Shown piece after piece: positions 26,672 to 51,825 of a stretch of DNA of 64,000 nt. The position numbers and the translations under genes were made by a program. The first letter of the stretch is position 1. Each line of letters begins with the position of its first letter. The DNA is from Gautieria morchelliformis (lineage: Eukaryota; Basidiomycota; Agaricomycetes; Gomphales; Gomphaceae), in the NCBI GenBank assembly GCA_015179125.1, contig WHVA01000354.1:1-64000 (forward strand). The letters are read 5' to 3'. The notes beneath the pieces were generated by a model that saw only the letters and a list, made by a program, of their open reading frames with translations, was not told the origin of the DNA and searched no databases.

Positions 26672-27363
26672 TGTTACGACCGTTCATTTCCGATTTCCGA
26701 CCCTCAGTTCCGCCATACATTCCGCCTCTCCAATAGTTCCGCCACACGTTCCGCCCCTCCGACATTTCCGACATTCCGCCCCTTGTACATTTCCCTTGTT
26801 CTTTCGACGCTATTACTCGTACCCACCGGACCCACCTCGCCATCCATCAAAACCATATATCCGGTCACCCTTGTAGTTCGTTGTCAGATATGTTTTCCCG
26901 ACCCCTTGTTCTTTGCCATTGTTCTACCTTACCCTGAACCCCCCTTGTAGTCCCATTGTTCCCAATTAGTTAGTTCCCACACATTGTACTCCACTTCCGC
27001 TTCCTCCGGAATTTGCTTAGTACAACACCATTACTTGTTGCTCTGCGCTTGTATAAAACCCCCCTCATGTATGTCTGTAATTCTGCAATCAGATAATCAC
27101 CTTCGATACTTGATTTCCTTCGCTCCATCTCCTGTTCTTAGCAAAGCGAGTCTAGCAAGATCTCAGTCTCTCTCTCTGCCTTCCGTCTTCCGCCTTCCGC
27201 CTCAGTTCCGACTCAAGTTCCGACCAAACCACTGGTCCAGTACTTTCCGACTTCCGGCTCATTTCCGAAATACCTAGGACGATAGTTCATTGGGGGCGCA
27301 ACCTATAAGTTGAAGCCGCTGTCCTTTCCAGTTCCGACTTAGTGGAAATCTCGATACGTAACA
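26672..27363 (+). repeat. 5' LTR of element K
   Basis: TGTTACGACC to TACGTAACA, 692 bp. Contains 18 TTCCG on the plus strand plus one CGGAA, and TATAAA at 27052-27057. Confidence 0.95.
27052..27097 (+). promoter_or_regulatory. K promoter TATA box and predicted RNA 5' end with self-primer
   Basis: TATAAA (27052-27057) is followed about 30 bp downstream by AATCAGATAAT (27087-27097). The latter is the exact complement of the primer-binding site at 27366-27376, so the predicted 5' end of the genomic RNA could prime reverse transcription, as in Tf1. Confidence 0.7.
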
Positions 27364-27365
27364 GT

Positions 27366-27376
27366 ATTATCTGATT
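27366..27376 (+). promoter_or_regulatory. Primer-binding site of K (self-priming type)
   Basis: ATTATCTGATT begins 2 nt after the 5' LTR. No TGG complementary to a tRNA 3' CCA end is present. Its complement lies at 27087-27097 in the LTR. Confidence 0.75.
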
Positions 27377-27396
27377 CCCACCCGATAACTATCACT

Positions 27397-28835
27397 ATGC
27401 CTCCTCGTACCACAGCTACTTCAGCTCGAGCAGGAGCTGTCGAAGCTCTCTCTTATTTTGGCAATCTTAGATCCGCAGCACCAAGGCACGCGGAACCCTC
27501 CAGCAGCTCTCGTGCCGACGATGAGCTTTCCGATGCTTTTCCGCAACGTTTCGAAGAAGTTCCCGACGCTAATCCCGACGACAATCCCGACTACGACGGG
27601 AATTCGACGAGTAGCAGCGGCGAACAAACAGCAGCGTCATTCCGACGCCCAGCTCCACCAGCACCACCTCCACCAGGACCACCTCCAGGCGGCCCACCAG
27701 GCGGCCCTCATGGCGGCCCACCCGGCGGTCCCCCAGGCGGTCCTCCCGGCGGTCCTCCACCTCCAATTCCACCTCAGATTCCCGCCAACCCAGTTCCGCC
27801 CGCGCCAGTTCCGGATCTTGCACAAGCCATCGCCATGCTAGCCGGACAACTCCAGCGCCCGGCCCAAGCACCACCACGCCCCAAGACAAAGGTCCGCGAA
27901 CCAGATCAGTTCGACGGTTCCGACCCCAAGAAGCTCCAGCCATTTCTGGTTCAGCTTCAACTCAATTTCCGTGATCGACCCGACGCCTTTCCCGACGACG
28001 AACGAAAGGTCAATTATGCCCTTTCCTATCTCCGAGGCACGGCGCTCGACTATTTCGAACCCGCCCTCATGGATCCGTTCGCTCTCGTCGACTGGGCCGA
28101 CGATTACACCAATTTCATTTCCGAACTCCGCAGCAACTTCGGACCATTTGATATGGAAGCCGATGCGGAAAACGAACTCGATAAGCTTCGCATGAAAGAC
28201 ACTCATAAGATAGCTAAATATATCGTCACGTTTCAGCAGCTCGCTCCTCGAGTCCAATGGGGAGAAGCCGCACTCCGACGCCAGTTTTACATGGGCTTGC
28301 CATCCCGCATCAAGGATGAAATTGCCCGCGTCGGAAAACCCGCCACCCTTACCGACCTCCGCAACCTCGCCCAATCCATCGATTTGCGCTACTGGGAAAG
28401 ACACTCCGAGATTGCTCGTGAAACTTCCGCCCAGAGCAAGAACGACAAGTCTTCCGACAAGAAGTCTGATAAAGACAAGAAGAAGACCAATTCCGGAAAC
28501 ACCAACTCCGGAAACAACAACAACAACAGTTCCGGATCCAACTCCGGCAACCGGAACAACAACAACACCCCTCGGAACAACCAGGCCTCTGGTTCTAACA
28601 CCAATGCCCGGAAGAGCACCCCGGATCTTTCCGACAAACTTGGGAAAGACGGAAAACTAACCCCTGTAGAACGCCAGCGTCGCATGGACAACAACCTTTG
28701 CCTCTTCTGTGGCAAAGGAGGTCACGTCGCTCGCGACTGCACTCGAGCTTCCGCCTCCGCTGCTAAGCCAAAGGCCGCGCAGCAAAGACGGAAGAGAAAT
28801 CCGAAGCGGTTCCCGCTGCGGATTCAAAAAAATAG
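27397..28835 (+). pseudogene. Gag of element K, frameshifted near its end
   Basis: ATG at 27397 (MPPRTTATS). A Gly/Pro repeat (GGPPGGP units) at residues 95-125 precedes the retrotransposon gag core (PDQFDGSDPKKLQPFL, YFEPALMDP, GWGEAALRRQFYMGL-like). An Asn/Ser-rich linker follows, then the zinc knuckle CLFCGKGGHVARDC. A 1-nt deletion near 28766 throws the current frame to a TGA at 28866. The related element C shows the natural frame ends KGRAAKT...KK followed by TAG, here TAG 28833-28835 after a run of seven A. Gag packages the element RNA into virus-like particles. Confidence 0.85.
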
Positions 28836-31800
28836 TCAGCAGTCCTCCGGCCTCCGCACGAGCTGAGGGCTGTGTTGACCCCATTCGTGCGACAAACGAG
28901 GTTAAACTCAACGCATCCGCTCTTTCGTCCTCCGACTCTCTCTCTGTTCCGCTCACTTCCGACACCATTTCCGCACCCCCGTTTACAGCATTGGTCGACT
29001 CCGGTTGACTCATTGTTTCCTCGATTCCGACTTTGTTTTGAAACATAAACTTCCGACCCGCAACATTCCGACTATTCCGCTCCGCCTTTTCGACGGGTCT
29101 TCCAACACGGGAATTTCCCAAGTTGTGGATCTGTCTATCCGTTTCGCTACTGGGGACAACCATGAAGTTACGTTTTACGTTACTCCGCTAGATGCTAGCT
29201 GTTCCGTTGTACTAGGACACAATTGGCTCACCCGATATAATCCGTCGATTAACTGGGCATTGGGTCAAATACAGTTCCGTACCCCGGATCAACTTCCGTC
29301 TATTCCGACGTCTTCTGCAAAGATGGCTCAGGCCTCTTCTGCAACTCCGCTCGTGGATTCAGTTCCGCACTCCGGTCCCGCTTTAGCACCTCCGCCCCTC
29401 GAAGCTCCTCGAATTGCGCTCGTTTCCGCCACCGCTTTCCGCGTATTGCAACGGCAAGAGATACGACCATTTTCCAGCTTCACCTCTCCGATTCGGCTTC
29501 AGTCAAGGCTCGTTCCGCCTCGACTTCCGCCCCGGTCGACATGAGCTCAGTTCCGGAAGAATATCGTGACTTCCCGGACGTGTTCAATAAGGCCAAAGCC
29601 GACAAACCTGCTGAACATCGACCTTACGACTTGAAGATAGATTGGAAGAAGGAGCATCTCCGCCCCTTGGACCGATCTACTCCCTTTCGCAAAGTGAACT
29701 CCTGACTCTCCGAGAGTTCGTCGATGAACATCTCAACATGGGCTTTATCCGCCCTTCGCTGTCTCCGCACGGCGCTCCGGTCCTCTTCGTCAAGAAGAAG
29801 GATGGATCTCTCCGCCTCTGCGTCGATTTCCGCGGACTCAATGCCCTCACTAAAAAGGACAAATATCCGCTTCCGCGCATTTCCGACTTACTCGACACTC
29901 CCCGCAGGGCGAAGATCTACACCAAAATTGACCTCCGGCACGCTTATCACCTTGTCCGCATCCGGGAAGGTGACGAGTGGAAAACCACCTTCCGCACCCG
30001 CTACGGCGCTTTTGAGTGGACTGTCATGCCTTTTGGTCTAACCAATGCTCCCGCCGCTTTTCAGCGATTCATGAACGACGTATTTTCCGACCTCCTCGAC
30101 GTATGCGTCCTAGTCTACATTGACGACATCCTCATCTATTCCGACACACCGGAAAAACATCGGGAACATGTCCGCGAAGTACTCCGCCGCCTACGCAAAC
30201 ACCATCTCTACGCAAAAGCAGAGAAATGCGAATGGCATCGCGACACGGTCGAATACCTCGGCTACATCCTCTCTCCAACAGGTCTTACCATGGCAGAGGA
30301 CAAGGTCAAGGCAATTCAAGAATGGCCGGAACCCCGACGTGTTAAGGATGTGCAGTTCTTTCCTTGGCTTCGCCAATTTTTACCGGCGTTTCATTTATAA
30401 TTTTTCCGACATTACTGTTCCGCTCACGCGTCTCACCAGGTAGGGTGCCCCATGGAATTTCACACCGGAATGCCGTTCCGCATTTGAAGCTCTCAAATCG
30501 GCTTCACCACGGCTCCCATACTCGGTTTCTGGATTCCTGATGCCCAACTTGTACTCGAAACCGACGCTTCTGACTACGCGCTAGCCGCCATTCTTTCCAT
30601 CATTTCACCTGACGACGGAGAAATTCATCCGATCGCCTTTCATTCCCGCACCTTTTCCGCCGCGGAACTCAACTACGACGTCCACGATAAGGAACTACTT
30701 GCGATTTTCGAAGCCTTCAAAATCTGGAGACATTACCTCGAAGGTCCAACTTATCCGATCGACGTTGTAACGGATCATAAGAACCTTGAGTATTTTGCAA
30801 CCACTAAGATTTTGACTCGCCGTCAAGTCCGCTGGTCTGAATACCTCTCACAGTTCAACATGGTGATCCGTTTCCGCCCCGGAAAGCTCGGAGCAAAACC
30901 CGACGCGCTCACTAGACGTTGGGACGTCTACCCAAAAGAGGGAAGTAGCGACTATGCCAGCGTTAATCCGCACAATTTCCGCCCAGTATTCTCTACTGAG
31001 CAACTGGCATCGTCCCTGCGTGCCACAGCATTGCAATTTCCGCTACTCCGCGCCTCAATTATTATGGACACCGAGTCTCTCCATTCCGACATCCGATCCG
31101 CACTCCGTTCCGACCCCACCTCCGCAACCCACCTCGATGACCCCACCAGTCCTGGATGGTCCCTCGATTCCGACGGATTTCTCCGGTACAAGTCCCGGAT
31201 TTACGTTCCGGACACCAACGATCTACGACTTCGCGTGCTTCAGCAAAGCCACGATCATCAGCTCTCAGGACACCAAGGCCAGAACAAAACCCTCGACATA
31301 ATCCGACGTACCTATACTTGGCCTCTCCTCCGCACGATGGTCCAAGACTACTGCAAGTCATGCACCACCTGTATGCGAGCCAAGCCTCAACGTCACAAAC
31401 CCTACGGCCTCCTGAAGCAACTTCCGATCCCGGAACAACCGTGGAATTCGATATCCATGGATTTCATTGAGAAACTTCCTAAGTCATCCGGCTATGATAC
31501 CATTCTAGTGATCGTTGACCGCCTCACAAAGCAGTCCATCTTTATTCCGACCTATGACACCATCACTTCCGCCCTGCTCGCACAGCTCTTTGTGCTCCAC
31601 GTCTTTTCCAAGCACGGAATACCTTCCCATGTCACTTCCGACCGTGGATCCGAATTCGTGTCCTCCTTTTTCCGCACACTCGGCAAGGCTCTCGACATGA
31701 AGCTCCACTTCACTTCCGGTTATCACCCCGAAGGAGACGGACAAACGGAACGTACTAATCAGACCCTTGAGCAGTATCTCCGCGTCTATTGCAACTACCA

Positions 31801-32535
31801 ACATAGCAATTGGTCCGACCTTCTTCCACTCGCGGAATTCGCCTACAACAATGCGCCTTCCGCCACCACCGGAATTTCACCCTTTTACGCCAACAAGGGC
31901 TACCACCCGAATCTCGCCATCCACCCGAACGCGACCTCGCCTCTGCAAGAGCCCGAGATTTCGTTGTGGAACTTGACGACCTTCACCAGCACCTCCGAGA
32001 GAACATTACCGCTGCCCAGAAGAGATACCAAACTTCCGCCGATCGGAAACGCCTTCCGCAACCGGCATTCGAGATTGGCGACAAAGTCTTTGTCAAAGCG
32101 GAAAACTTCCGCACCACTCGCCCCTCGAAGAAACTCTCTGAGAAATACCTCGGTCCTTACGAGATCATCGCTAAGGCCGGCAGTCGTTCTTTCACCCTCA
32201 GACTTCCTGACAATATGCGCGCAGTACATCCGGTATTCCATGTCTCCATGCTTGAACCCGCAGTTCCGAATACAATTCCGAATCGAGAACAACCTCCGCC
32301 TCCGCCAGTCGTCATCGATGGAGAACCGGAATATGAAATCTCGGAAATTCTCAACTCCAAGCTCGACAGACGATACCGCTGCCAACTCCAGTACCTAGTC
32401 AAGTGGGCAGGCTATGAAAACACCGACGAAGAGACTTCGTGGATTTCCGCCACGGAACTTGACCACGCCTCTGACCTCGTCTCTGACTTTCACAAGTCAT
32501 ATCCTGATAAGCCTGGCCCCGTTTCCGCGCCCTAG
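28836..32535 (+). pseudogene. Pol of element K (PR-RT-RNase H-integrase-chromodomain), broken
   Basis: Domains in order: protease ALVDSG (about 28990), RT with [19 protein letters not shown] and YIDD (about 30115), RNase H ETDASDYAL (about 30560), integrase zinc domain (HDHQLSGHQG...CTTC, 31250-31370), catalytic core SMDFIEKLP, SDRGSEF, HPEGDGQTE, and a C-terminal chromodomain YEISEIL...YLVKWAGY ending at 32535. Breaks: 1-nt deletions near 28890, 29004, 29470, 29643, 30505 and 31926, a 1-nt insertion near 30356, and TAG at 30441. With the LTRs almost identical, the breaks were either copied in with the insertion, arose very recently, or are sequencing errors. Confidence 0.9.
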
Positions 32536-32658
32536 TCAATTCCGACCCCACTTCCGATACCCCCATTTCTTACGGTTCTTAAGTCACACACATTTCCGAC
32601 TAATTTTCCATTATGATTTCCGACACTTCAAGAAACTATGTTACAAGTTATTCGACCC

Positions 32659-33890
32659 CTACTCCTCCCTCATCGTCTCCGCCTCTTCCTTCTCCGCTTC
32701 CGCACCCTCTTCCGCATGCCCCATCGGCACACTCACCAACTCTGTCTCCACCCTCGTATCCACCACCTGACTCGGACCCGTTTCCACACCATCCTCCTCC
32801 TGCATCCGCCACTCCATTCGTTCCCGGAGCATATTGTTCCGCCACTGGAACTCCCGCTTGATCTGCTCCACAACCGTCGACAAAACCGTCATCTGGTTCT
32901 GGAAGCTCAACAGCTGTTGCTGTTGAACCGCGGACATCTCCTCGAGCGTATTCCGAATCCCGCGCTGGGATCTCCGGATACCCCTCAGACACTCTGCAAT
33001 GTCCAGCAGAGGCGACATGTCAGCCTTCTCGGTCGCCGGAACCCTTTCCGCCGTCTTTTTCCCGCTCGACCTTGGTTTCGACTTAGGGGTTTCTGGCCCC
33101 TCGGTCTCGACTCTCCGCCTTTTCCGCTCCACCCTCGCGGAACAGCCGTCCACGACGCACCGCCTCTTCTTGTCGCGGCACCGTTCACAGGCGGTTTCCC
33201 GCGGATTTTCTGACCAGACGCATTCTAGTCCTTTTACCTCGCAGGTGTCACAGGGCGCCTTTTCTTCTTCCCCGTCCCTTGTCTTCCGTTTCCGGGTCGC
33301 GGGATTCTCCGGCCCCAACTCCTGGAGGTCGACAATGCGGGCCATCTTGTTCTTCCTGGCCTGTTGAAATTCGTCCGCCCTCCTTTTCCGATCCGCCACA
33401 AGGTTCACAACAGGAACTACTTCCTGTTGTTTTCCCTTCCCCTCAGGAGACGGCGTGTTTTCCGCCGTGTCTTCCGACTCCGGTTCGGAATCGGATTCGA
33501 CGATTATTTTCTACCAAGTTTTTTTCAGTCAGTCTCGGGATGAGGCTCAGGACCTTTCCGACTCACCCGGGATTGTTCCGTTTTCTCCGCCACGGCCTTG
33601 TTTTCCGCAGCCTTTTGGGCCGCATCCCGTTTCCGCTGTTCTTCGCGGACGCGCGATTCCTCCTCGCGACGTTTGCGGTCACGCTCCTCCTTCTCTTTCC
33701 GCTCCCGTTCCAGACACTCCTGTTCCTCGCGCTCTTTCTCTTTGCGCTCCTCCTCCAGACGCTCTTTCTCCTTCCGCGCCGCTTCCTCGGCCTCGCGTTT
33801 TTCGGCCAACTCCTTTTGCGCGAGCATGTCAGCAAAGTGTGCTTTCATCTCAGCACTGGTCATTTTGGAAAAGTCGACTGGAGTGCTCAT
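32659..33890 (-). CDS. Antisense zinc-cluster protein of element K, intact
   Basis: Minus strand, opposite to gag-pol. Exon 1 is 33890-33567 (108 codons), the intron 33566-33511 (56 bp, GTGAGT...TAG), and exon 2 33510-32659. The 391-residue protein has no stop. Exon 1 starts MSTPVDFSKM and is mostly a Lys/Arg/Glu coiled coil (residues 25-100). Exon 2 has an acidic stretch and a basic patch, then CDTC, GLECVW, TACERC and KKRRC, i.e. CX2CX6CX10CX2CX6C, the Zn2Cys6 pattern of fungal DNA-binding proteins. A Gln-rich coiled coil and an acidic tail follow. It ends 124 bp from the pol stop, convergently. The Zn2Cys6 fold would bind CGG-like triplets; the element is full of TTCCG (CGGAA). Its role as an element-specific regulator is inferred. 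Confidence 0.8.
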
Positions 33891-33999
33891 GATGGACTAA
33901 ACAGAAGACGCGTCTTGTTTCCCGCCTATATTTCAAACTCCGACGCGTTTGTTCACAGGTCACGTGATTCCGACTTGTGGTCTCGCGGGGCTCGACCTT

Positions 34000-34012
34000 A
34001 GAAGGGAGATAC
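34000..34012 (+). promoter_or_regulatory. Polypurine tract of element K
   Basis: AGAAGGGAGATAC directly precedes the 3' LTR and is the likely plus-strand primer. The same form (purines then ATAC) is seen in element C at 51229-51241. Confidence 0.75.
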
Positions 34013-34704
34013 TGTTACGACCGTTCATTTCCGATTTCCGACCCTCAGTTCCGCCATACATTCCGCCTCTCCAATAGTTCCGCCACACGTTCCGCCCCTC
34101 CGACATTTCCGACATTCCGCCCCTTGTACATTTCCCTTGTTCTTTCGACGCTATTACTCGTACCCACCGGACCCACCTCGCCATCCATCAAAACCATATA
34201 TCCGGTCACCCTTGTAGTTCGTTGTCAGATATGTTTTCCCGACCCCTTGTTCTTTGCCATTGTTCTACCTTACCCTGAACCCCCCTTGTAGTCCCATTGT
34301 TCCCAATTAGTTAGTTCCCACACATTGTACTCCACTTCCGCTTCCTCCGGAATTTGCTTAGTACAACACCATTACTTGTTGCTCTGCGCTTGTATAAAAC
34401 CCCCCTCATGTATGTCTGTAATTCTGCAATCAGATAATCACCTTCGATACTTGATTTCCTTCGCTCCATCTCCTGTTCTTAGCACAGCGAGTCTAGCAAG
34501 ATCTCAGTCTCTCTCTCTGCCTTCCGTCTTCCGCCTTCCGCCTCAGTTCCGACTCAAGTTCCGACCAAACCACTGGTCCAGTACTTTCCGACTTCCGGCT
34601 CATTTCCGAAATACCTAGGACGATAGTTCATTGGGGGCGCAACCTATAAGTTGAAGCCGCTGTCCTTTCCAGTTCCGACTTAGTGGAAATCTCGATACGT
34701 AACA
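34013..34704 (+). repeat. 3' LTR of element K
   Basis: 692 bp, identical to the 5' LTR except for one base that I can find. Confidence 0.95.
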
Positions 34705-35720: not shown

Positions 35721-35839
35721 CTTCGTGGGGATGATGGTGGTTAGCTTCCAAGAAGCGATGCGCCCTCGGAAATATCCGAGGTGAAAATTTAACCACGCCG
35801 TGGCCGGCACGTCACGTGGTCTGCACGTGACAGACGCGT

Positions 35840-38800: not shown

Positions 38801-38930
38801 GATCTGCTCGTATGCTTCTGACATATCAAGTTTTGTTCGATATTGGCAGCGAGCCATGTCGCTGCATATGATATCTTGATCCGGGAAGGGCGTGACGTCC
38901 TTTACCGTGTTCTCGTTCTGCTGGCGCAGA
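35840..38930 (-). pseudogene. Pol of gypsy element E, truncated and interrupted
   Basis: The minus strand begins inside RT (RFPLRQQNENTVKDVTPFPD), continues with NAPSTFQRLM, YMDD (about 38650), RNase H (VITDGSKAGVGAVY, DHKGLEYF) and the integrase zinc domain (HQIVGHYGH...CVRC). The core is GIDFMGPLP, VSDRDSKF and HPQTDGATERAN. After the solo LTR at 36608-36820 come the integrase C-terminus and a chromodomain-like end (EWLVDEIITHRW, VRWTLGDVTWEPMSSC) to the stop at 35840. Frameshifts lie near 38785, 38520 and 38260. The 5' side is joined to element G at about 38930. E is a lineage distinct from K, C and G. Confidence 0.88.
36608..36820 (+). repeat. Solo LTR, family E, TSD atctg
   Basis: 213 bp, TGTAAATAACC to ATCTTTACA, with perfect duplication atctg (36603-36607, 36821-36825). 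It is inserted in E's own integrase gene, in the opposite orientation. Confidence 0.95.
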
Positions 38931-38935
38931 GGGAA

Positions 38936-41751
38936 ACGAGTGGAAGGCCGCATTCCGCACCAATCGAGGACTCTTTGAGCCACAGGTCATGTTCTTTGGC
39001 CTCACCAACAGTCCCGCCACATTCCAGACGATGATGAATGACATTTTCCGTGACATGATAGCAGAAGGGGTTGTCTGCGTCTACCTCGATGACATCCTCA
39101 TTTTCACGAAAACAATGTCCGAACATCGGGAAGTCATGCGGAGAGTGCTGGAACGGCTCCGGGAGTACAACCTGTGTCTCAAGCCGGAAAAGTGCGAATT
39201 TGAGCGGACGCGGATAGAGTATCTTGGGGTGATTGTGTCGGAAGGAAAGGTGGAAATGGACCCAGTCAAAGTTTCCGGTGTATCGGATTGGCCCGTGCCG
39301 CGAAACAAGAAGGAGGTCCAGTCCTTCATTGGGTTTGTCAATTTCTACCGGCGGTTCATCAAGGACTTCTCCTGCCACGCCCGTGCCCTCTTTGACCTCA
39401 CCAAGAAGGAGGTTGGATGGCGGTGGGGAGAGCCGGAACAGACTTCCTTTGACAAACTCAAGGAGCTGATCACTTCCGCCCCGGTCCTGATCTTTCCCGA
39501 CGACTCTCGCCCTTATCGAGTCGAGGCGGATTCTTCCGACGCAGCTACCGGAGCGGTCTTGTCACAGCAGTCATCGGAAGACGGTGGGGGGTGGCATCCG
39601 ATTGCCTTCTTCTCTAAGAGCCTTAGTCCGGTCGAGCGGAACTATGAGATCCATGACAAGGAGATGCTGGCAATCATCCGAGCGCTGGAGGAGTGGCGAC
39701 ACTTCCTCGAGGGTGCTCTATGCCCTTTTGAGATCTGGACAGACCACAAGAACCTCGAGTATTTCCGCACGGCTAAGAAGCTGAACCGACGACAAGCACG
39801 GTGGTCCCTACACCTGTCCCGGTTTGACTTCATGCTCCACCACCGCCCCGGCCGCACCATGGGCAAGCCCGATGCCCTATCCCGCCGCGCGGATCACGGA
39901 AGCGGAAGTGGAGACAACGCGGATATGACACTGCTCTGCCCAAGTCTCTTTGCAATCCGTGCCCTAGAAGGAGTAACTGCAGTTGGGGCGGAAGCGGAAA
40001 TGCTCCGGGATATCCGGAGGCAGTACCGGAATGGAGAGAAGGAGGAGTCGGTGGTGAAGGCAGTGGAGGAACTCCGGAAGGGGCACTCACGGTCTGTACG
40101 GGCAGCGGAATGGTCGGAACGTGATGGACTGCTCCACTTCAGAGGCAAGGTCTATGTTCCGGGTGGGGCGGACCTCCGCCGTCGCATCGTGTCCCAGCAC
40201 CACGACACACGGGTCGCTGGGCATGCTGGCAGGTGGAAGACGCTGGAGTTAGTGGCTCGGAATTACTGGTGGCCTCAGATGTCCCGCTACATCGGACAGT
40301 ACGTGAAGACGTGTGACCTTTGTCTCCGAACCAAAGCGCAACGACGTCCGCCCGTCGGAGAACTTGTTCCGCTCCCGATTCCCGAATCCCGCTGGGACAC
40401 CATCAGTGTCGACTTCATCGTTGAACTCCCAGAGTCTCATGGCTACGACGCGATCATGAACGTCGTGGATTCGGTGAGCAAGGTGTCCCACTTCATTCCG
40501 ACGCACACGACGATCACAGCCCTCGGAGCGGCCCGCCTGTTCCTTGCACATGTCTGGAAGTTGCATGGGCTCCCGAAGCAAGTCGTTTCCGACCGAGGTC
40601 CGCAGTTTGTCGCGGAACTGACTCGGGAGCTCTACCGCCTGCTCGGCATAAAGCTGGCTACCACCACAGCGTACCATCCGCAGGGTGACGGACAGACGGA
40701 ACGGGTCAATCAGGAGTTGGAGCAATATCTCCGCCTCTTTGTCAATGAGAGGCAGGATGACTGGGATGAGTTACTTCCGCTGGCGGAATTCCAATACAAC
40801 AACCATGTCCATTCCGCCACGCAACAGACTCCCTTCATGCTTGACTCCGGACGACACCCGCGGATGGGCTTCGAACCACGCCAGGCTGACTCCCGACTCG
40901 AGACGGTCAATGAGTTCCGAGACCGCATGGACTCCACCCTTTCGGAAGCCAAGTCGGCCCTTGCGAAGGCCAAGGATGACATGGCAAGGTACTACAACCG
41001 ACGCCGGGTTCCTGCCCCAGAGTACCAAGTTGGAGACAAGGTGTACCTAGATGCAAGTGACATCCGCACCACGCGCCCTTCGCAGAAGCTTGCCCACCGC
41101 TACCTTGGGCCCTTCACAGTGACGCGGAGGGTTGGACGGAATGCATACCGCCTCCGACTTCCGATGTCCATGTCCCGCCTCCACCCCGTCTTCAACGTGG
41201 TGAAGTTACTCCCTATGCTTGAGGACCCAATTCCAGGTCGGAAGGCTCATCCGCCACCTCCGCCAGAAATTGTAGATGGGGAAGAGCACTACGTGGTAGA
41301 ACGGATCCTGGACAGCCGGTTTGTGCGAGGACGACTCCAATTCCTCGTGAAATGGGAAGGGTATGGGTACGAGGAGAATTCGTGGGTCCCGGAGCAAGAT
41401 GTTTCCGCTCCTGACAAACTCCGGGAGTTCTACAGGACACATCCAGGTGCCCCTCGCCGAATCCGCTCGCTGGCATTTCAATCCCTTGTGTCCCGTGCTT
41501 CGAGGACGCAGCACGCTAGAGGGGGGGTGATGTCAGGGGACACCCTGTTTTCCATTTCCAGTTCCGACACCACACCCAGTTCCGACTCCATTTCCGACTC
41601 CGCTTCCGGTTCCGATTCCATCTCCGCCTCCGCTTTCGGGAACGATTCCGCTTCTGGGAGAACTTCCACCAGTTCCGTTCGCCTTGCCAGTTCCACTCCA
41701 ATTTCCGACTTCCGCCCCGGAACAGCGTCGGAAATCAAGCGACTCGCATAA
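38936..41751 (+). CDS. Pol of element G, RT-RNase H-integrase-chromodomain, 5'-truncated
   Basis: Open from EWKAAFRTNRGLFEP through FFGLTNSPATF and YLDD (about 39095), RNase H (VEADSSDAATGAVL, DHKNLEYF), zinc domain (HDTRVAGHAG...CDLC), core SVDFIVELP, VSDRGPQF, HPQGDGQTE, and chromodomain (YVVERILDSR, FLVKWEGYGYEENSW). It ends in a Ser/Asp-rich tail that reads through the purine tract into the LTR and stops at 41751. No internal stop is present, but the N-terminal half (protease, first RT blocks) and gag are gone, so it cannot act alone. It is nearly identical to the copy at 58984-63162. Confidence 0.9.
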
Positions 41752-42010
41752 TAGGTGGCATCAAGGGTCGATCAAGGGTCAGGGGGATGCAGGGTTGATG
41801 GCGGGTGCCAAGCGTTGTCCCTGGCTGCGCAGCGTAGTATAATACGGGCTCGCTGACATTGGGGGTCCTTAGACTTTTCTCTTTGGATTTCCCCTTGTCA
41901 GGTGAGAACCCCCTCTCTTGTATGCTCTGTTCATTTATACATACTTTGGATTTCCCCTTGTCAGTTGTGTGGTAGTGTGATCTCCACGACTAGCCAGGGT
42001 TGCCCTTACA
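41531..42010 (+). repeat. 3' LTR of element G copy 1
   Basis: TGTCAGGGGACACCCTG to GGGTTGCCCTTACA, 480 bp, preceded by AGAGGGGGGGTGA (41518-41530, purine tract). Nine TTCCG lie in its first 190 bp. Confidence 0.88.
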
Positions 42011-42708: not shown

Positions 42709-43025
42709 TGCCTGGGCCATGGCACTCTGTGGGAGTCGAGTGGTCAGACACCCTGGTATGAGGAATACGGGCCGGGATACTCACGGAAGTTGGCCACTGG
42801 GGTTATGGGGGAGTTGACAGGGAGCTGCTGGTACTTGACAGCGAGCCTGTGGAGCTAAGCGAAAAGGTGCGATTGAAGAACAGGGTCAGCGGATGCTTCG
42901 AAGCCCGGGGCAAGTTCATATGGAAGACGAGTGCCGAACCAAGAGAGGCTGAAGTGTCTGTGGTGCGTGGTGTTGTCGATGGTGCAGCGCGGCAAGCCGC
43001 CTATTATGAATCGGCATAACCCGAC

Positions 43026-43587
43026 TGTAAGGACCCGGCCTTTGGCCGGTTACTTACCGGTAAAACCTTCTTCCGAGCCCGAGCCTTGTGATATTCGTGC
43101 CCAAGTACATATGATCCTTATCCGCGCCCGATCCCGAGCCCGAGCTTGAGCTCATATCCGACCTTGATCCCATGACCGTATTCCCTTAGTTACTGATTCC
43201 GCCTCATCACGCATCATTCGTATATTACCTCGCCCTGACCTCGGCCTCCTGACCTCGCCCTGACCTCCACTAATATGTTCGCCCCTGACTCGTACCCTCG
43301 TTCGTATATAACCCCCCTTGTATGCATTCCTACTCCTTAGTCTGAAAATCAACTATCGTATCCATTCGATCCCTAGCTAGTTTCTAAGCCTCGCCTCTTA
43401 AGCCAAACCTCGCCTCTGATTCGTTTGCCTCCGAAGTTGGGACTCGTGCGTAGGGTCGGCGCAGCACATAAGCTGAAGCCAAGTCCCTCTCCGACTTCCC
43501 CATCCAAACCTCGCCCCGTAACCTCGGACCTTGCCTCGGGTTTCGTTCCCGACCTCGGCCAACCTTACGATGGATCGGATCGTAACA
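43026..43587 (+). repeat. 5' LTR of element C
   Basis: TGTAAGGACCCGG to ATCGTAACA. Contains ten CCTCG on the plus strand and TATATAA at 43305-43311. Confidence 0.93.
43305..43349 (+). promoter_or_regulatory. C promoter TATA box and predicted RNA 5' end with self-primer
   Basis: TATATAA (43305-43311) and, 34 bp on, AGTCTGAAAAT (43339-43349), the exact complement of the primer-binding site at 43590-43600. Confidence 0.7.
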
Positions 43588-43589
43588 GT

Positions 43590-43600
43590 ATTTTCAGACT
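43590..43600 (+). promoter_or_regulatory. Primer-binding site of C (self-priming type)
   Basis: ATTTTCAGACT begins 2 nt after the LTR, the same spacing as in K, and pairs with the RNA 5' region. There is no tRNA-type TGG start. Confidence 0.75.
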
Positions 43601-43631
43601 GCTTACACCCTACGTATCCCTCTTTTTCACG

Positions 43632-44861
43632 ATGTCCATGATAACTCGTTCTCGCACCCTTCGGGGTATCTCAGGACAACGACGTTTCTCGGAAGCCCCC
43701 AATGACTCACCCCCGTCCCCAGGGATACCCCTCGCAGACCCCCCCGAGCCTAGTAACAAAGGCAAAGGTAGGGCTAACCCCGGTGATCCTTCAGGTGATC
43801 CAGGTGATGGCTCTGGAAGTTCTGACAACGATCAGGACCTCCCCAACCTACCACCCGAGGACCTCGGTGACCTCGAGGACAACGAGCTTATGCGTCGAGT
43901 GTTCATCAGACTCGCGAAACCTCGCGAGTCCGAAGCACGAGCCAAGGTCAAGGAACCGGATAGTTATGACGGTACTGACCAGGCCAAACTTCGCACCTTC
44001 TTCCTTCAATGCGTACTCAACTTCCGAGATCGCCCCACCGCTTTCAAGACTGGGGGCTCAAAGGTGCAGTATGCTATTTCTTACCTGTCCGGCTCAGCTC
44101 TACAGTATTTCGAACCGGCGATCCTCGGCGAAGTCCAACCCGAGCGAGATTGGCTCGAGGACTGGGACAGCTTCAAGGACCAGCTTGAGCTCAACTTCGG
44201 CCCATACGACAACGCTGCCCAAGCCGAGATTGACCTCGAGAAGATCGTTATGAAAGAGCACCACAAGGCCGCGTGATTCTTTATCGACTTCGCCCGAGCT
44301 TCAACTCGGACTCAGTGGAACGATGCGGCCCTCCGACACTTTGCCTACAAGGGCTTGGCCAAACGAATCAAGGACGACTTACTTCACTTCCCTCGATTCC
44401 GCAGCATCGCCGAGCTTAGGAACTTCGCGCTGGAATGCGACAGCCGTTACTGGGAGCGTAAGGAATACGACGCTATGATCAATGGTCGTAGCTCCCAGCC
44501 TGCACGCGCCGCTAATCAGTCCAGCAGCAATGCCACTAACAACAACCAGTCCTCCAGCGGTTCCAATAACAATAAGAACCACAACAAGACTAACAACAGC
44601 GGCAAGGGTTCCAACAACAACTCTTTGAACAACAAGAGCCAGCCCGACATTTCGAGCAAGCTCGGGAAGGATGGCAAACTACTTCCCGAGGAGCGCCAAC
44701 ATCGGGTCGACCAAGGCCTTTGTCTGCTTTGCGGCACCAGAGGCCACATTGTCAAGGACTGCCTGAAGAACAAGTCTACCAACGGTAGCGGTTCTAAAGG
44801 TCGGGCAGCGAAGACCCCTAACGAGGGGACTTCGGCCTCCATTACGGAGGTGAAAAAATAG
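43632..44861 (+). pseudogene. Gag of element C with one stop
   Basis: ATG at 43632 (MSMITRSRTLRG). Disordered Pro/Ser/Gly N-terminus, then gag core (PDSYDGTDQAKLRTFF, YFEPAILGEV, NFGPYDNAAQAEIDLEKI). An in-frame TGA at 44274-44276 stands where K has Lys (CGA-to-TGA fits). Then comes the Asn/Ser-rich linker and the zinc knuckle CLLCGTRGHIVKDC. It ends KK-TAG at 44859-44861 after six A. Confidence 0.85.
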
Positions 44862-47800
44862 GTAGCAACCTCGGAACCACATGATCCGAGGATTGCGGTA
44901 ACCTCACCCGTGTGCTCAGACTCAGCGCCGCTTCTCATTCATTGTCCAAAGAGCCTTAATGTAGATCTAACCTCGCCTTCGCTTCCCAACGTCGCTTTTG
45001 TTGCATTAGTTGACTGCGGGTCCTCAGATTGTTTTATTGAATCCAGATTTGTCCAGAAGTACTCTATGCCTGCTTATCCTGTCTCTCCGATACCCTTGAA
45101 ACTATTTGACGGTAGTACTAACACTACCATTACCCAAGCTCTAGACCTCTGCATTTGCTTTCCAACTGGCGAACAACAATGGGTTACCTTCTACGTAACC
45201 TCGCTCGACTCGAGTTGCTGGGTGGTACTTGGCCACAACTGGCTCACCTGCTACAATCCGTTGATTGACTGGGTATTGGGCAGTATTACTTTCAAGACCA
45301 TCGACCTAACAACGACTCCAGCGACCACGGCGACGTCAGCCCCCTCAGCTTCGGCTACGACTTCGACCTCGCCTCCGAAGTTGCAAGCACCCCTCGTTTC
45401 CCTAATCAATGCACCCGCTTTCATGCGCGCATCTAGATTGGAAGGGTCCGAAGTGTTTCAGCTCAATCTGGCTTCGCCTGAACTCCTCTCCAGAGGGGCA
45501 ACATCGGGAGAAAGCTCTTCCGAGCCTTCTGAGAACGTTAAGAAACATGTTCCCGAAGTATATCACGAATTTGCAGATGTGTTCAGCAAAGCACGCGCTG
45601 ACACTCTAGCTCCCCACCGACCCCACGATATCAAAATCAACCTCGAAGAAGGGACCTCGCCACCTATCAGTCCCATCTACTATCTCTCAGCTTCCGAACT
45701 CAAAGCACTTCGCGAGTTCATCGACGAGCATTTGAACATCGGTTTCATCCGACCTTCACGCTCGCCTCATGGTGCACCGGTATTGTTTGTTCGTAAAAAA
45801 GATGGCTCACTTCAGTTGTGTGTTGATGTCATGACGCGTTTATTCCTCATAACTCAGGTGCTCTGTCCTGACATTTCTCACCCCATTTCCGTGTTCGTTC
45901 CGATCGCTATTGTCATGTTCGGCAACCGATATTCGCTGATTCGCGCCCGCTACCACCGCCACGCCGTTAAAACGCATGACCAACGGTTTTGGACTGACTT
46001 GACAAGTCATCACTGGGTCTACTACCTCCGCTGTTCGACCCTCCTCTGATGGTGTTGATAAGTTGGATTTCCATGACCAGTGTATGTCCTACACCTTGGT
46101 ATCCCCATTTTCCCTTTCGCTACTCCTCCTCGGTATTCGCTCGGCTTCGCCCTCTGCCTCGACCTTCCCTCCACTAGTCCACCTCTGTTCGCCCTTCCTT
46201 GCATTTCGCCAAATGGCTAGTCGCTGCTCGCATCATTCGCCAGCAGGTACACCATCAAATACGATCGATGCCATTCACCCGGCATGATGGTTCATCATTA
46301 ACCCCATCGTCTTCTTAATCCAACCCCATTAGGCGTTTGTATGGTCAAAATGTGTTCGCAGGGCATCCCTTCCATAGGTCGTGCGGAATCGACCCAGTAG
46401 ACCAAGAGTCCGTGCAGGGTAGCATGTATGGGGGTCCCAAGACATGGTTTTGTCCATAAGTGCCTTCGCCACCTTTACTCTCCGTCATTTCATGTTCCCC
46501 CTCTCCTCGCATTCTATTGTATGTTTATTTCATCTATGCTGTATCATGACTGTGCGCCCCTATCCAACCCTGACTTGTGACGGCCTCTTTCCTATTCGCT
46601 GATACCGTACGAGCATTTGATATAAGTAGTTTACATTCGCATGTATATTCCCTAGGTCAATTATCATACGTTGTCAATCTTGTGCAAACTTCACCTCGCT
46701 GTGATCATCGTCTTGGGCCTTTCCTTGAAGATTTCTATCTTCGACCAGCCAAGGACATAGGCACCACTGGTGAGTTCTCATACTTCATCTTCGTTACCCT
46801 AGCCTTTGAACTACCTTCTGTGCTGTTGGCGAAGGGCTCCTAAGGAGCACCTTCGCCAGCGAAGGGACTGTCGAAACTTAGACAGCCCTTCCGCAATATC
46901 TTGCACGTTGTGTCGTCAAGTGTTGCGAGCTGTTTTGCTACGACTGTAGACAGGGCGAGCCCCGTTCGGGCAACCCCTTTGTTTCGTGAACATTTATCGG
47001 TTCACTTATTCGCCTAACGGCATATCTCTTCGCACAAGTTATTCGGGCATTCGCTGTGTTCACTAATACACGATATTAACGCCTAAAAACCAATCTTGAC
47101 AGTCGACTTCCGAGGTTTAAACAAGATCTCGAAAAAAGATCGGTATCCATTGCCATTGATTGCTGACTTACTTGATGCTCCAAAGAATCCTCGTATCTAT
47201 ACGAAGATAGACCTTCGTCATGCTTACCACCTCGTATGGGTGGCCGAGGGTGACGAATGGAAAACCGCCTTCAGGACTCGCTATGGGTCTTTTGAATGGT
47301 TGGTTATGCCATTTGGTCTCACTAACGGCCCTGCTGCTTTCCAGAGATTCATGAATGAGATTTTCGCCGACCTTTTGGACATTTGTGTGGTGGTATACTT
47401 GGATGACATTCTAATCTACTCCAGTGACCCCTCCAAACATGTTGAACATGTCAAGGAAGTCTTGCAACGACTGCGACTCAACAACCTCTTCGCCAAAGAA
47501 GACAAATGCGAGTTTCATCGCGACTCGGTTGAATTCCTCGGCTACATACTCTCTCCCAAGGGCCTCACTATGGCGGATGACAAGGTAAAGGTCATTCAAG
47601 ACTGGCCCGAACCTCGCAAAGTTCGCGACATCCAATCCTTCCTCGGCTTCGCCAACTTCTATCGACGTTTCATTCACAACTACTCTGACATCACCATTCC
47701 TCTCACCCGACTCACCCGCAAGGGTACCCCTTGGAACTTTTCCGAGGATTGTCGACAGGCCTTCAACCTGTTGAAGAGGGCGTTCACTACCGCCCCTATC

Positions 47801-49816
47801 CTTACCCACTGGATTCCTGACCTTCCGCTAATCGTAGAAACTGATGCTTCAGATTATGCCTTAGCGGCAATCTTATCACTGCGAACCTCGGAAGGCGAAC
47901 TTCATCCCGTCGCTTTCCACTCCCGCACATTCACCTCTACCGAGCTCAACTACGATGTTCACGACAAGGAGCTCCTCGCCATTTTTGAAGCCTTTCAACG
48001 CTGGCGACACTACCTAGAGGGCTCTGGCGACCCTGTCGACCTTATCACCGACCACAAGAACCTTGAATACTGTTCAACAACGAAGCTCTTGACCCGTCGA
48101 CAAGCTCGGTGGTCAGAATACCTTTCCCAGTTCAACCTCGCCATACGCTTCTGACCTGGTCGCCTCGGAACGAAGCCTGACTCTCTCACTAGATGATGGG
48201 ACGTCTACCTTAAAGAGGGGAATAGCGACTATGCCACCATAAACCCACAGAACCTACGGCCAGTGTTTACTCAACACCAGCTGGCATCGTCCCTTAGAGC
48301 TACTAATCTCACTCCCGTCGTACTCTGAGCCGCTTCACTGCTTGATACCGAGCAGATCCGAGCAGACATACTAGCAAACTTCCCCTCGGACCCCATAGCC
48401 AAGTCGCACCTCGGCTTGGTTAATGACCCGAGGTGGACCACAGACCCCGAGGGTTTTCTCAAGCTCGACAACCTAACCTATGTTCCAGTGGCCCAAGACC
48501 TTCGACTTCGCATCCTGCAATACAAGCACGACCACATTCTCTTGGGACACTTCGGGGTCAATAAGACCTTTGAGCTGATCCGACGAGATTACACTTGGCC
48601 AGGGATTAGATCCTTTGTCAAGGAATATTGCAAAACATGCACCACTTGTATGCGAAGCAAGCCGCAATGTCACAAACCCTATGGTCTCCTCAAACAACTT
48701 CCCGTTCCCGAGAAGCCTTGGAATTCCATCTCTATGGATTTCATTGAGCAGCTTCCCCCTTCATCCGAGTTCACCTCCATCCTAGTGATTGTTGACCGCT
48801 TCACTAAGCAGGTTATCTTCATTCCAACCACAGACAAGATAACCTCGCAAGAGCTCGCTCATCTCTTCGTGCTTCATGTCTTTTCCAAGCATGGAGTCCC
48901 CTCGCACATCACCTCGGACAGGGGTTCCGAGTTCGTCTCGCACTTCTGGCGTTCCCTAGGGAAAGCCTTGGACATGCGGTTGCATTTCACCTCGGGATAT
49001 CATCCCGAGGGTGACGGTCAAACCGAGCGTGCTAACCAGACCTTGGAACAGTACCTCAGGATATATTTCAGCTATCAGCAGTCCAATTGGGCTTCGCTCC
49101 TTCCCCTAGCCGAGTTCGCCTACAACAATGTGCCTAGCGCAACCACCGGCATCTCCCCATTCTTTGCTAATAAAGGTTACCATCCGAACCTCGCAGTTCA
49201 CCCCGAGCGCAACCTCGCCTCGGCACGAGCCCGAGACTTCGTGGTTGACCTGGACGAGCTTCACCAAGAACTTCGCCGCGCCATCCTCGAGGCTCAGAAA
49301 ACCTACCAAGCCTCGGCCGATGTTCGCCGCAAGCCTGCTCCTGATTTCCAAGTAGGATCCCTCGCCTTTGTAAAGGCACAGTACTTCCGAACAACTCGGC
49401 CTACCAAGAAGCTCGCCGAGAAGTTCTTGGGTCCTTTTGAGATCATTTCCTGAGCAGGTACTCACTCCTTCACCCTTCGACTCCCAGAACACATGCATTC
49501 AGTCCATCCAGTATTCCACGTATCTATGCTCGAACCAGCCTCGCCCAACACCATCCCGAACTGAGTTCAGCCGCCTCCGCCCCCAGTCGTTATCGACGGC
49601 GAACCCGAGTTCGAGGTTTCCGAAATCCTCGACTCGAAGATCAATAATAGACGCAAGAGCTGCAAATTACTCTATCTTGTTAGGTGGACTGGTTACGAAG
49701 GTACCGACGAAGAAACCTCGTGGATCCTCGCTTCCGAGCTTGATCATGCCTCGGAGCTGGTCACTGACTTCCACGAGTCTTATCCGGGCAAGCCGGGACC
49801 TTTGACTGCTCTATGA
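44862..49816 (+). pseudogene. Pol of element C, interrupted by LTR D and five TGA codons
   Basis: In frame with gag after TAG. Protease ALVDCGSSD (about 45005), RT start to CVD at 45826, LTR D, then VDFRGLNKISK, MPFGLTNGPAAF, YLDD (about 47398), RNase H ETDASDYAL, zinc domain (HDHILLGHFG...CTTC), core SMDFIEQLP, SDRGSEF, HPEGDGQTE and a chromodomain (FEVSEILDS, YLVRWTGYEG) to the stop at 49814-49816. In-frame TGA codons at about 48152, 48193, 48326, 49451 and 49562 stand where K has Arg or Lys. The element cannot make its own enzymes. Confidence 0.92.
45827..47101 (+). repeat. Solo LTR, family D, TSD gttga/gtcga
   Basis: 1275 bp, TGTCATGACGCG to AATCTTGACA, flanked by gttga (45822-45826) and gtcga (47102-47106), one mismatch. 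It splits the RT gene of element C exactly within VDFRGLN. It is the reference copy for family D. About 16 TTCGC/GCGAA motifs. Confidence 0.92.
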
Positions 49817-50118
49817 CCGTTTCCTTGTTTAACCCCCATGAACCCAGTAGCTGGATAACAAAATCCCCTCACAACCGAACAACAAAAAAAATCGATAAAT
49901 CCAAGAAATTCCATTATTCTCTTAGTAGTTACTCCACCATCCTCATATCCTCTCCCTCCCTCTCCTCGCTACCCTCCCTGACTCCTCCTCATTACTACTG
50001 CTACTTCGCTCCACCAGACCCCCATGTCCTCCATACTCTGCCAAGTCCCTCGCCCCCTGCATCTGCTTCAAAAAATTTCGCCTCCTCCTTATCCTCATAA
50101 ACTCCACATCCGCCTGAT

Positions 50119-51105
50119 TCATCCTATCGTTCCCGCCCTAAACTCCCCCAACAACTCACACACCCTTTCTCCAACCTCGCCAACCTTCTGTCCCACATCC
50201 CTTACCGCCGCTATCAATTCCCTCATCTCTGCACTTCGCTCCGACCTTTTTGTCTTCTTGTCCTTCTTAGCCCTCCAACCTCCCACCTCGGTTTCCTTCC
50301 CCTCACTCTGCCTCGCTTCCCCGACCTCTGTCTCCTCACTCTGCCTCGCTCCCCCAGTCTCCTTACCCTTCTCCTCGCTCAACCTCGCTTCCATCCGCTC
50401 CACCCTCGTCTCGAGGTTCCTCTCGACCCAATTGCTCGAGTCGTCGTCCTCTGCAACTTCGTCCCGAACCTTGGCCTCTTTCCTCAGCCTCGGTCCATCC
50501 TCGGCATCCGAGCTCCTCGCTCGCTTCTTGCCCATGGCACTCGCTTGACCTTTTCCTGGGGTCGCCTTGCTGCGATGACCTTGGGCTATACTACAGCCCA
50601 AGGAGCGTGTCCTGCACCACACGCAGGCGCCCTGGTCGGTGAGGCTGAAGTCAAGACTAACGGCCCGAAGGCACGTATAGTCGCGCTCTTCGCAGCGCGC
50701 GCACCTTGCCTCAGCCTTGGTCGCGAGTTGCCACTCACGAGGTCCCCCGTCGGCGAGCTTGTACCCGTATAGGGACAAGTCGGTCGGGTGGTAGGAGAAT
50801 AACATTCGCTTGTACTACTCAAGTCAGCGAACAGCAAAAAACGATACTACTCAACGACTCACCTTTTTGCCATTCGGCCCTTCCTGCCACGGCTGCCGCA
50901 TGTCGATGGCCCCCGTGTCATCAATTGGCAATGTGCCAACCTCGGGTCGATCCTCGGGCATAATCTCGCCCGAGGCTCCGTTCTCCTCAGACAGCAATGT
51001 CTGGTCGAACACGTTGTTCGCGCTGTTCTCGTCGACGGCTGAGTTGAAGAGGGGTTGCGGGCGCACCATATTCGTTGGCACTTGGGTTCGCTGCCTCCTA
51101 CCCAC
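50119..51105 (-). CDS. Antisense zinc-cluster protein of element C, intact
   Basis: Minus strand, opposite to gag-pol. Exon 1 is 51105-50863 (81 codons, MGRRQRTQVPTNM), the intron 50862-50815 (48 bp, GTGAGT...GAGTAG), and exon 2 50814-50119. The 313-residue protein has no stop. Exon 1 is acidic and probably disordered. Exon 2 starts YKRMLFSYHPTDLSLYGYKL, then CARC, DYTC, GACVWC and SLGC, i.e. CX2CX6CX15CX2CX6C. A basic patch (GKKRARSS) and a long Glu/Lys-rich coiled coil ending ELLGEFRAGTIG follow. The order (pol chromodomain, about 300-bp gap, convergent antisense gene, purine tract, LTR) matches K. The first loop after the second Cys pair is longer than in classical Zn2Cys6 proteins, so zinc binding is likely but DNA binding is inferred. 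Confidence 0.8.
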
Positions 51106-51228
51106 CCTTTTATCTAACCTCGGCTACGATTTAAGCTTCGCCTTTCCGGCTACTTAACATCGGGCCGGGATCTAGATTCGAGGATAGGCGAACCTTGTTC
51201 ACATTACGGCCTCGAGGGTCTCGGCCAT

Positions 51229-51241
51229 AAGGGGAGGATAC
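51229..51241 (+). promoter_or_regulatory. Polypurine tract of element C
   Basis: AAGGGGAGGATAC directly before the 3' LTR. Confidence 0.75.
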
Positions 51242-51796
51242 TGTAAGGACCCGGCCTTTGGGCGGTTACTTACCGGTAAAACCTTCTTCCGAGCCCGAGC
51301 CTTGTGATATTCGTGCCGGAGTACATATGATCCTTATCCGCACCCGAGCCCGAGCTTGAGCTCATATCCGACCTTGATCCCATGACCATATTCCCTTAGT
51401 TACTGATTCCGCTCCATCACGCATCATTCGTATATTACCTCGCCCTGACCTCCGCCTCCTGACCTCGCCCTGACCTCCACTAATATGTTCGCCCCTGACC
51501 CGTACCCTCGTTCTTATATAACCCCCTTGTATGCATTCCTACTCCTTAGTCTGAAAATCAACTATCGTATCCCTTCGATCCCTAGCTAGTTTCTAAGCCT
51601 CGCCTCTTAAGCCAAACCTCGCCTCTGATTCGTTTGCCTCCGAAGTTGGGACTCGTGCGTAGGGTCGGCGCAGCACATAAGCTGAAGCCAAGTCCCTCTC
51701 CGACTTCCCCATCCAAACCTCGCCCCGTAACCTCGGACCTTGCCTCGGGTTTCGTTCCCGACCTCGGCCAACCTTACGACGGATCGTATCGTAACA
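51242..51796 (+). repeat. 3' LTR of element C
   Basis: 555 bp, TGTAAGGACCCGG to ATCGTAACA; the self-primer sequence recurs at 51548-51558. Confidence 0.93.
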
Positions 51797-51825
51797 CCGA
51801 CCAAGTTCGACTTGCCTTACCAACA

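Follow-up and report, generated by a model that had tools for sequence, protein, structure and literature searches.

Introduction

The closest described parallel to the locus reported here is VANC/VANDAL of Arabidopsis, an anti-silencing system for which word binding and de-silencing by VANC were demonstrated (Hosaka et al. 2017, PMC5735166; Sasaki et al. 2023, PMC10398659), and in which the words sit in tandem repeats of non-coding regions (PMC5735166). Genes in antisense orientation are described for LTR elements as well, i.e. the extra ORFs between pol and the 3' LTR of the plant Ty3/gypsy elements Retand (TRP28), Grande and RIRE2, and HBZ in the 3' part of HTLV, a nuclear regulator (PMC11963269, passages on antisense genes). 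In fungi, also in Agaricomycetes, DNA transposons carry TET/JBP genes proposed to counter silencing (excerpts of PMC12730594). Among the titles listed by our literature searches, none was recognised as describing an LTR retrotransposon with a Zn2Cys6 gene or a fungal word system of this kind.

Here, we analyse an antisense gene of element K, a chromovirus of the truffle-forming fungus Gautieria morchelliformis (Gomphales), together with the related chromoviruses M and S and the unrelated element N. The stretch of DNA analysed, called the window throughout, comprises 64,000 nt (contig WHVA01000354.1, positions 1-64,000), and copies were searched in the genome to which it belongs (G000; 122 Mb, 1113 contigs). 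A protein annotated in Gautieria morchelliformis matches positions G000:C649:57876-58391 at 100% identity over 172 residues, which makes it almost certain that this genome is from that species.

K and M resemble VANC/VANDAL, as described in the consulted passages, in having an element-encoded protein, a short word enriched in an element's own copies, a word differing between related families and an unrelated element sharing one of the words, which is AT9TSD1 in Arabidopsis and N in Gautieria (PMC5735166). They differ in that VANDALs are plant DNA transposons whereas K and M are fungal LTR retrotransposons, and in that the words of K and M are dispersed over coding and non-coding sequence with few short repeats; binding and de-silencing are inferred here. 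The K/M system may thus work like VANC/VANDAL without being placed within it, given the other element class, fold and word layout. The antisense ORFs of the Retand type share with that of K the place, the orientation, the conservation across copies and the predicted DNA binding, but Retand has a TRP28 domain, a plant host and a non-chromovirus lineage, and the passages on these elements describe no family-specific saturating word (PMC11963269). TET/JBP dioxygenases, unlike the antisense proteins, are enzymes and not sequence-specific binders, and are located on DNA transposons (PMC12730594). With HBZ, the K gene shares its antisense orientation, its location in the 3' portion of an LTR element and the putative role of a nuclear regulator (PMC11963269). 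The fungal Zn2Cys6 factors Gal4, Leu3, Put3, Hap1 and AlcR are alike in the six-cysteine cluster, the predicted fold, the long helix and a CGG-bearing candidate site in the case of K, whereas the antisense proteins are very diverged, gave no match to the Pfam middle domain and are retrotransposon-borne. HBZ is a bZIP protein made from a spliced transcript, for which we know of no sequence-marked genome, and VANC is, to our knowledge, not a Zn2Cys6 protein.

Results and discussion

Element K carries a spliced gene on its minus strand

K is a chromovirus with gag, reverse transcriptase, integrase and chromodomain flanked by LTRs. Its features are as follows.

26672..34704, plus strand: element K, Ty3/gypsy chromovirus, LTR to LTR (LTR comparison and Pfam)
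26672..27363, plus strand: 5' LTR of K, TGTTAC...GTAACA (LTR comparison)
27397..28866, plus strand: gag ORF of K with capsid and CCHC knuckle (ORF list, Pfam)
29642..30400, plus strand: reverse transcriptase ORF of K (ORF list, Pfam)
30812..32535, plus strand: integrase ORF (30812-32398) and SH3/chromodomain ORF (31810-32535) of K, in different frames (Pfam)
32659..33510, minus strand: exon 2 of the antisense gene, comprising the Zn2Cys6 cluster, the long helix, the acidic tail and the stop codon (translation, copies, model)
33157..33252, minus strand: six-cysteine cluster CX2CX6CX10CX2CX6C (pattern search)
33511..33566, minus strand: antisense gene intron, 56 nt, GTGAGT...CTGACTG...TAG (splice signals, copy comparison)
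33567..33890, minus strand: exon 1 of the antisense gene, 108 codons encoding a highly charged sequence (translation, copy comparison)
33891..34012, minus strand: leader of 122 nt separating the antisense start codon from the 3' LTR, candidate dedicated promoter (leader alignment)
34013..34704, plus strand: 3' LTR of K (LTR comparison)

The LTRs of 692 nt each differ at 1 position, and a target duplication of 5 bp (TGTTG) was read from the flanks. Pfam recovers the gag capsid, the zinc knuckle, RVT_1, Integrase_H2C2, rve, SH3_Tf2-1 and Chromo on the plus strand, with RNase H being absent from the matches of the K pieces submitted. As a side observation, K combines a pol region (29642-32535) split over more than one reading frame with an intact antisense gene and nearly identical LTRs.

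A preliminary description of this DNA, made from the sequence, had proposed a two-exon, 391-codon minus-strand gene between the chromodomain and the 3' LTR, which the coordinates and the comparison of copies confirm. The predicted splice junction 33567/33510 is exact in its coordinates, the cysteine pattern lies at 33252-33157, the acidic tail is seen at the C-terminus of the translation and the product comprises 391 amino acids plus stop. A search of all six frames of the window with a Zn2Cys6 pattern returned 2 occurrences, located in the antisense genes of K and M, and matched 0/10 order-1 random windows. ORF length was dropped as proof of the gene since random sequence gives long stop-free runs: in 1.48-kb order-1 random sequence the longest run has a mean of 222 codons and reaches 249 or more in 135/500 cases, compared to 304 observed.

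Gene and intron are conserved among the copies of K

At least 118 stretches in the same genome match the K antisense gene, this being a count of stretches and not of copies. We compared 20 loci, taken mostly from the top of the match list and not by random choice. The gene adjoins an LTR in 20/20 of these loci and is flanked by pol matches on the opposite strand in 19/20, locus L028 having no pol match. Including K, 19 of the 21 gene copies are intact after intron removal, and all 21 possess the GTGAGT donor, a CAG or TAG acceptor and CTGAC or CTCAC near the acceptor. Counted per copy against K, 47/48 indel events within exons are multiples of three compared to 0/17 within the intron; counted as distinct events of place and length, 16/17 exon indels and 0/4 intron indels are in frame. 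An earlier count leaving out L010 and L020 beforehand gave 41/41 and 0/15, respectively. The sole out-of-frame exon indel, which measures 4 nt and lies where L020 begins, is probably due to this stretch, which begins with CATCAT, having been cropped too early, and the same cropping would explain its non-intact score and its missing cysteine pattern. Across 11 diverged copies, exon 2 diverges by 0.123, 0.092 and 0.284 at the three codon positions and the intron by 0.271, and the median dN/dS is 0.187 (range 0.13-0.40; 143/171 pairs with dS above 0.1).

The number of matching stretches, the codon-position-dependent divergence, the in-frame exon indels and the dN/dS of about 0.19 argue that the K antisense gene is a real gene under purifying selection, and this conservation suggests that it is spliced and expressed. 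Since many matches read through the intron without a stop, we had suspected the intron of being an artefact of a frameshifted continuous ORF; this reading was rejected because the splice signals are invariant, no intron indel is a multiple of three and the intron diverges like third codon positions. The expectation that the intron could survive retrotransposition agrees with its retention in 21/21 copies of K and 9/9 copies of M, and its persistence would follow from its being antisense to the genomic RNA. One K-type antisense match lies within an open frame of 1298 codons (G000:C139:94137-95183), possibly a fusion or a host gene.

Alignment of 19 leaders, from K and from 18 of the 20 loci, shows strong conservation upstream of the antisense start codon; 15 of them contain TCGGAA, 17 CACGTG and 14 ACGCGT, the latter two being E-box and MCB-like sites. 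The leader of M likewise contains M's own word, described below, and the leaders suggest a dedicated promoter with feedback.

Related families carry diverged antisense Zn2Cys6 genes

Antisense ORFs between pol and the 3' LTR are present in K and M within the window and in further loci fetched, the related chromoviruses M and S each having their own diverged antisense Zn2Cys6 gene.

43024..51796, plus strand: element M, a related chromovirus bounded by LTRs (43024-43587; 51240-51796) and interrupted by a nested insertion at about 45828-47095
50119..50814, minus strand: M antisense gene exon 2, CX2CX6CX15CX2CX6C, cluster at 50593-50703
50815..50862, minus strand: M antisense gene intron, 48 nt
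50863..51069, minus strand: M antisense gene exon 1, 69 codons
20154..20693, plus strand: Z, decayed relative of the S-type Zn2Cys6 gene, by an S-word-rich kilobase

The M gene matches 157 stretches in the genome; among the 9 sequences compared, all keep an intron of the form GT[GA]AGT...AG, 8 have an open exon 2 and 5 a clean exon 1, and the median dN/dS of exon 2 is 0.199 (28 pairs from 8 sequences after exclusion of L040, which has a stop). S-type and Z-type genes match 154 and 151 stretches in overlapping sets. In six loci fetched (L030-L035) the S/Z-type gene is opposite in strand to the pol matches; the chromodomain match nearest to Z itself (20677-20880) is on the same strand as Z.

The preliminary description had named random cysteine spacing in related elements as an observation speaking against its proposal. 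We found the spacing to be constrained: an alignment of 10 chosen antisense proteins has 9 invariant columns, of which 6 are the six cysteines, and the cysteine pattern fits 18/21 copies of K and 7/8 of M. A profile of the 10 proteins gave 2 matches among 8000 candidates scored, both from Gautieria morchelliformis and neither annotated with any Pfam domain. Element regulators may thus be hidden among the antisense 'hypothetical proteins' of annotated mushroom genomes. Direct comparisons with the protein database, returning no relative at E<=1 for K residues 110-391 among 2165 candidates and none for the M protein among 1827, say little by their absence of matches. In a decayed element, another K-like antisense gene (L031:4956-5727) shares 33-43% identity with that of K and may represent an additional family.

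The antisense proteins are predicted to adopt a Zn2Cys6 fold

The Zn_clus domain has the cysteine spacing CX2CX6CX5-12CX2CX6-8C, and CGG is the half-site of Zn2Cys6 proteins. The spacings of K (CX2CX6CX10CX2CX6C) and S (CX2CX6CX7CX2CX6C) fit this range, and the middle loop of 15 residues in M falls outside. Pfam PF00172 scores 16.9 bits on the whole K protein and 18.3 bits on the exon-2 ORF (E 0.0068 and 0.0025) and 18.7 bits on S, K and S lying below the gathering score of 21 bits. At E<=1 it matches 8/10 antisense proteins with a best value of 1.7e-4, the M protein having no match. Neither the Pfam middle domain of fungal transcription factors nor the TRP28 domain (PF04195) was found among the Pfam matches of the antisense proteins.

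Structure prediction, proposed earlier for the cysteine region, gave models for K and S with modest overall pLDDT (65.6 and 60.2), in which two short helices are placed at the two half-clusters with a long helix behind, covering residues 132-207 in K mostly above 90 in confidence. The predicted arrangement thus has the two short helices of a binuclear cluster fold, and both family models match Zn2Cys6 DNA-binding domains best. In Foldseek searches against the PDB, named Zn2Cys6 domains make up 6/8 matches of the K model (Leu3, Gal4, AlcR) and 20/21 of the S model (the same set plus Put3, LAC9, Ppr1 and Hap1), and each model has one further match to a chain of the CBF3 complex, a complex with a Zn2Cys6 subunit. 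Every E-value is 0.28 or higher, none reaching 0.001, and the rows repeat few proteins, so that the Zn2Cys6-like fold is suggested by the agreement among weak matches and not by single E-values. A VIA-align top row, a spliceosome chain at 40.8 A rmsd, was disregarded. Sequence searches of the PDB gave weak matches to GAL4 (E 0.62) and LAC9 (E 2.6), below or beside unrelated helical proteins. Purifying selection in two families and the predicted fold support the earlier proposal of an element-encoded DNA-binding regulator.

K and M are enriched in family-specific words

The K word [TG]CGGAA, i.e. TTCCG[AC] on the sense strand, has 114 sites in K (14.2 per kb), and its cores TTCCG and CGGAA occur 120 and 31 times, respectively, throughout LTRs, gag, pol, antisense gene and leader. 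Counted on both strands, TTCCG[AC] has 19 sites in M (2.5 per kb), 16 in S (2.1), 3 in P (0.7), 1 in Q (0.15) and 0 in the copia stretch. The word of M is CCTCG[GC], its CCTCGC form containing no CGG; ACCTCG[CG] has 36 sites in M, i.e. 4.8 per kb compared to at most 0.91 in other elements. Most sites are dispersed, many within coding sequence, and TRF reports a small number of short repeats with the word, of 2-4 copies, in the LTRs of K and M and one in the gag of K. Among neighbouring TTCCG and CGGAA sites in K, spacings of 12 bp and 7 bp are frequent, with raw counts of 15 and 8 pairs, respectively.

The enrichment exceeds that in 100 dinucleotide shuffles: the top 6-mer of K occurs 55 times (mean 6.0, largest shuffle count of any 6-mer 24), ACCTCG of M 39 times (mean 3.2, largest 19) and the top word of N 25 times (mean 2.6, largest 13). 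The top 6-mer of S (20, mean 2.6) stays below the largest shuffle count of 21, and no word is enriched in P, Q and copia. Synonymous shuffles of gag-pol with preset words give the K word 31 times in K versus 8.9 (z 8.4) and 22 times in N versus 5.8 (z 7.7), the M word 31 times in M versus 10.0 (z 7.9) and the S word, chosen post hoc, 18 times in S versus 6.2 (z 5.5), no word being raised in the gag-pol of P. An unbiased gag-pol scan of all 6-mers ranks CGGAA words at the top in K (z 6.0-6.9; maximum of 60 shuffles 4.1) and N (z up to 9.9; 5.0), and CCTCGG and ACCTCG in M (z 6.0 and 5.8; 4.7). The words of K and M are thus enriched in their own copies beyond shuffle and codon controls. Within the antisense genes, the own word has z 3.9 in K, 2.6 in S and 1.6 in M, where it is not clearly raised; the M word in the K gene has 2.2.

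For S, the word [CT]TCGG[CG], which replaced the first candidate CCCGAAC (7 exact sites in L032), is weak and kept as a suggestion. It fails the scan of all 6-mers (z 4.0, shuffle maximum 4.4), is also raised in the gag-pol of M (z 3.5) and is at background in four S/Z integrase segments (2 sites in 2433 nt, 0.82 per kb); 12 sites are located beside Z in 19001-20000.

In aligned pol, 0/33 K-word sites have the same 6-mer in M and 2/27 M sites are shared, which is indistinguishable from other CpG 6-mers (8% shared), and a mutual exclusion of sites between K and M was rejected as not beyond chance. Among 17 K copies compared, the 8 with the greatest divergence retain the word better than control CpG 6-mers within the antisense gene (0.594 versus 0.319) and the LTR (0.595 versus 0.466) and no better in pol (0.692 versus 0.672), so that conservation of the word in pol was not taken to demonstrate selection on its positions. 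K and M differ in both word and protein, these being only two strong pairs, and a family-specific word across the whole element, which the preliminary description had not noted, is a candidate target for the antisense regulator.

Element N shares the word of K

38929..42010, plus strand: N copy, 5'-truncated, K-word-rich, LTR at about 41529-42010
58772..64000, minus strand: second N copy, reaching beyond the window to about position 65001 of the contig

N carries 81 sites of the K word (13.0 per kb). The LTRs of its window-end copy enclose gag and pol, and the Zn2Cys6 pattern is absent from every frame of this copy; word and gene are therefore not strictly linked, and either N uses the protein of K in trans or both K and N use a third reader. 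Grouping of segments, used for the N, N-like and S/Z rows only with K stretches being mixed into the group 'other chromo 30-50%', gave 13.8 K words per kb in N segments (5 segments, 9108 nt) and 2.3 per kb in N-like segments (56-72% identical; 8 segments, 5670 nt). An N integrase piece has at least 150 matches in the genome, all 98-100% identical among the matches listed, and this near-identical abundance suggests a recent burst. N, present also at locus L029, is very abundant, with many of the listed matches in open frames of over 1000 codons.

A model for self-recognition and alternative readings

These data are consistent with a model in which the product of the antisense gene is a Zn2Cys6 DNA-binding protein supplied by the element. 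It would probably dimerise via its long helix and be translated from a short spliced minus-strand mRNA starting in the conserved leader by the 3' LTR. The protein would read its own family's word, i.e. [TG]CGGAA in K, CCTCG[GC] in M and perhaps [CT]TCGG[CG] in S, and by occupying about 14 sites per kb it would coat the K copies, activate their LTR and hold them outside silent chromatin, as VANC proteins do for VANDAL. A lineage changing protein and word together may escape from relatives and shared silencing, and N, lacking such a gene, may have acquired the word of K and be served in trans as a hitchhiker. Transcription, DNA binding, the pairing of protein and word and an effect on expression or silencing are what the model would add to the observed conservation and enrichment. 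We regard activation or de-silencing of copies by an element protein reading the family word, like VANC/VANDAL and with N hitchhiking, as reasonably probable. The wider reading, i.e. self-recognition of LTR retrotransposons by a word written by selection into coding and non-coding sequence, swapped together with the protein and copied by N, we hold tentatively, at slightly short of an even chance. If true, it would represent element-encoded sequence-specific recognition by which LTR retrotransposons are marked over their full length, a system of separate origin from VANC that uses a common fungal fold, and transposon escape from silencing would become testable in one genome, in which two strong word/protein pairs and a gene-less sharer provide swaps and controls. 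The main doubts concern the sense-strand bias in K and M, the few independent word/protein pairs and the weak case of S.

The strand bias of the words, with 103 sense and 11 antisense sites in K, 18:1 in the K LTR and 34:2 in M, suits an RNA-level signal and is not required of a double-stranded site. The words might therefore be dispersed RNA packaging or capsid signals read by the CCHC knuckle of each family's Gag, the antisense protein regulating other targets, and both the course of the word through coding sequence and the divergence of the gags (identity of K to M 39%, to S 49%) would agree with this. N, however, has the word of K at equal density both ways (37 sense, 44 antisense), which is not expected of an RNA signal, and the word of K contains CGG, the Zn2Cys6 half-site, so that we consider this reading unlikely.

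Reading of the words by host transcription factors, with the antisense protein only regulating element transcription via the LTR, appears quite unlikely. It would account for the word in the N copy examined, which has no gene, and for the 16 K-word sites of the K 3' LTR clustering on both sides of its TATA box, with 8 lying within its initial 110 nt and 6 at 517-597, on either side of TATAAA at position 381. Host promoter sites, however, need neither differ between sister families as close as K and M (67.8% pol DNA identity over 2703 aligned columns) nor be enriched inside coding sequence.

Chromodomain integrases are chromatin-targeted, the window is a nest of elements and a self-binding protein could act as a tether, so that the protein might instead mark family copies and steer new cDNA into them, resulting in nested arrays in safe places; we judge this very unlikely given that K itself sits in word-poor DNA, with 0 sites upstream (26001-26671) and 0.7 per kb downstream (34705-38900). 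That the words are meaningless by-products of mutational or reverse-transcription bias is highly improbable, since the C-rich sense strand of K, M and S (31-34% C versus 20-21% G) would favour it but sister families of one genome differ in their word, N is not C-biased (29% C, 28% G) and yet has the word of K while N-like segments do not, and neither dinucleotide nor synonymous shuffles reproduce the words. The reading we prefer remains that of an element-borne protein recognising its family's word.

Further features of the window

A copia-type pol on the minus strand at 13973-15535 (RVT_2, retroviral SH3) is devoid of the K word. A long repeat, nearly free of the three words and giving no match to K queries, occupies 1749-8440 and 51792-58774, the two copies being mostly about 96% identical and located 50 kb apart.
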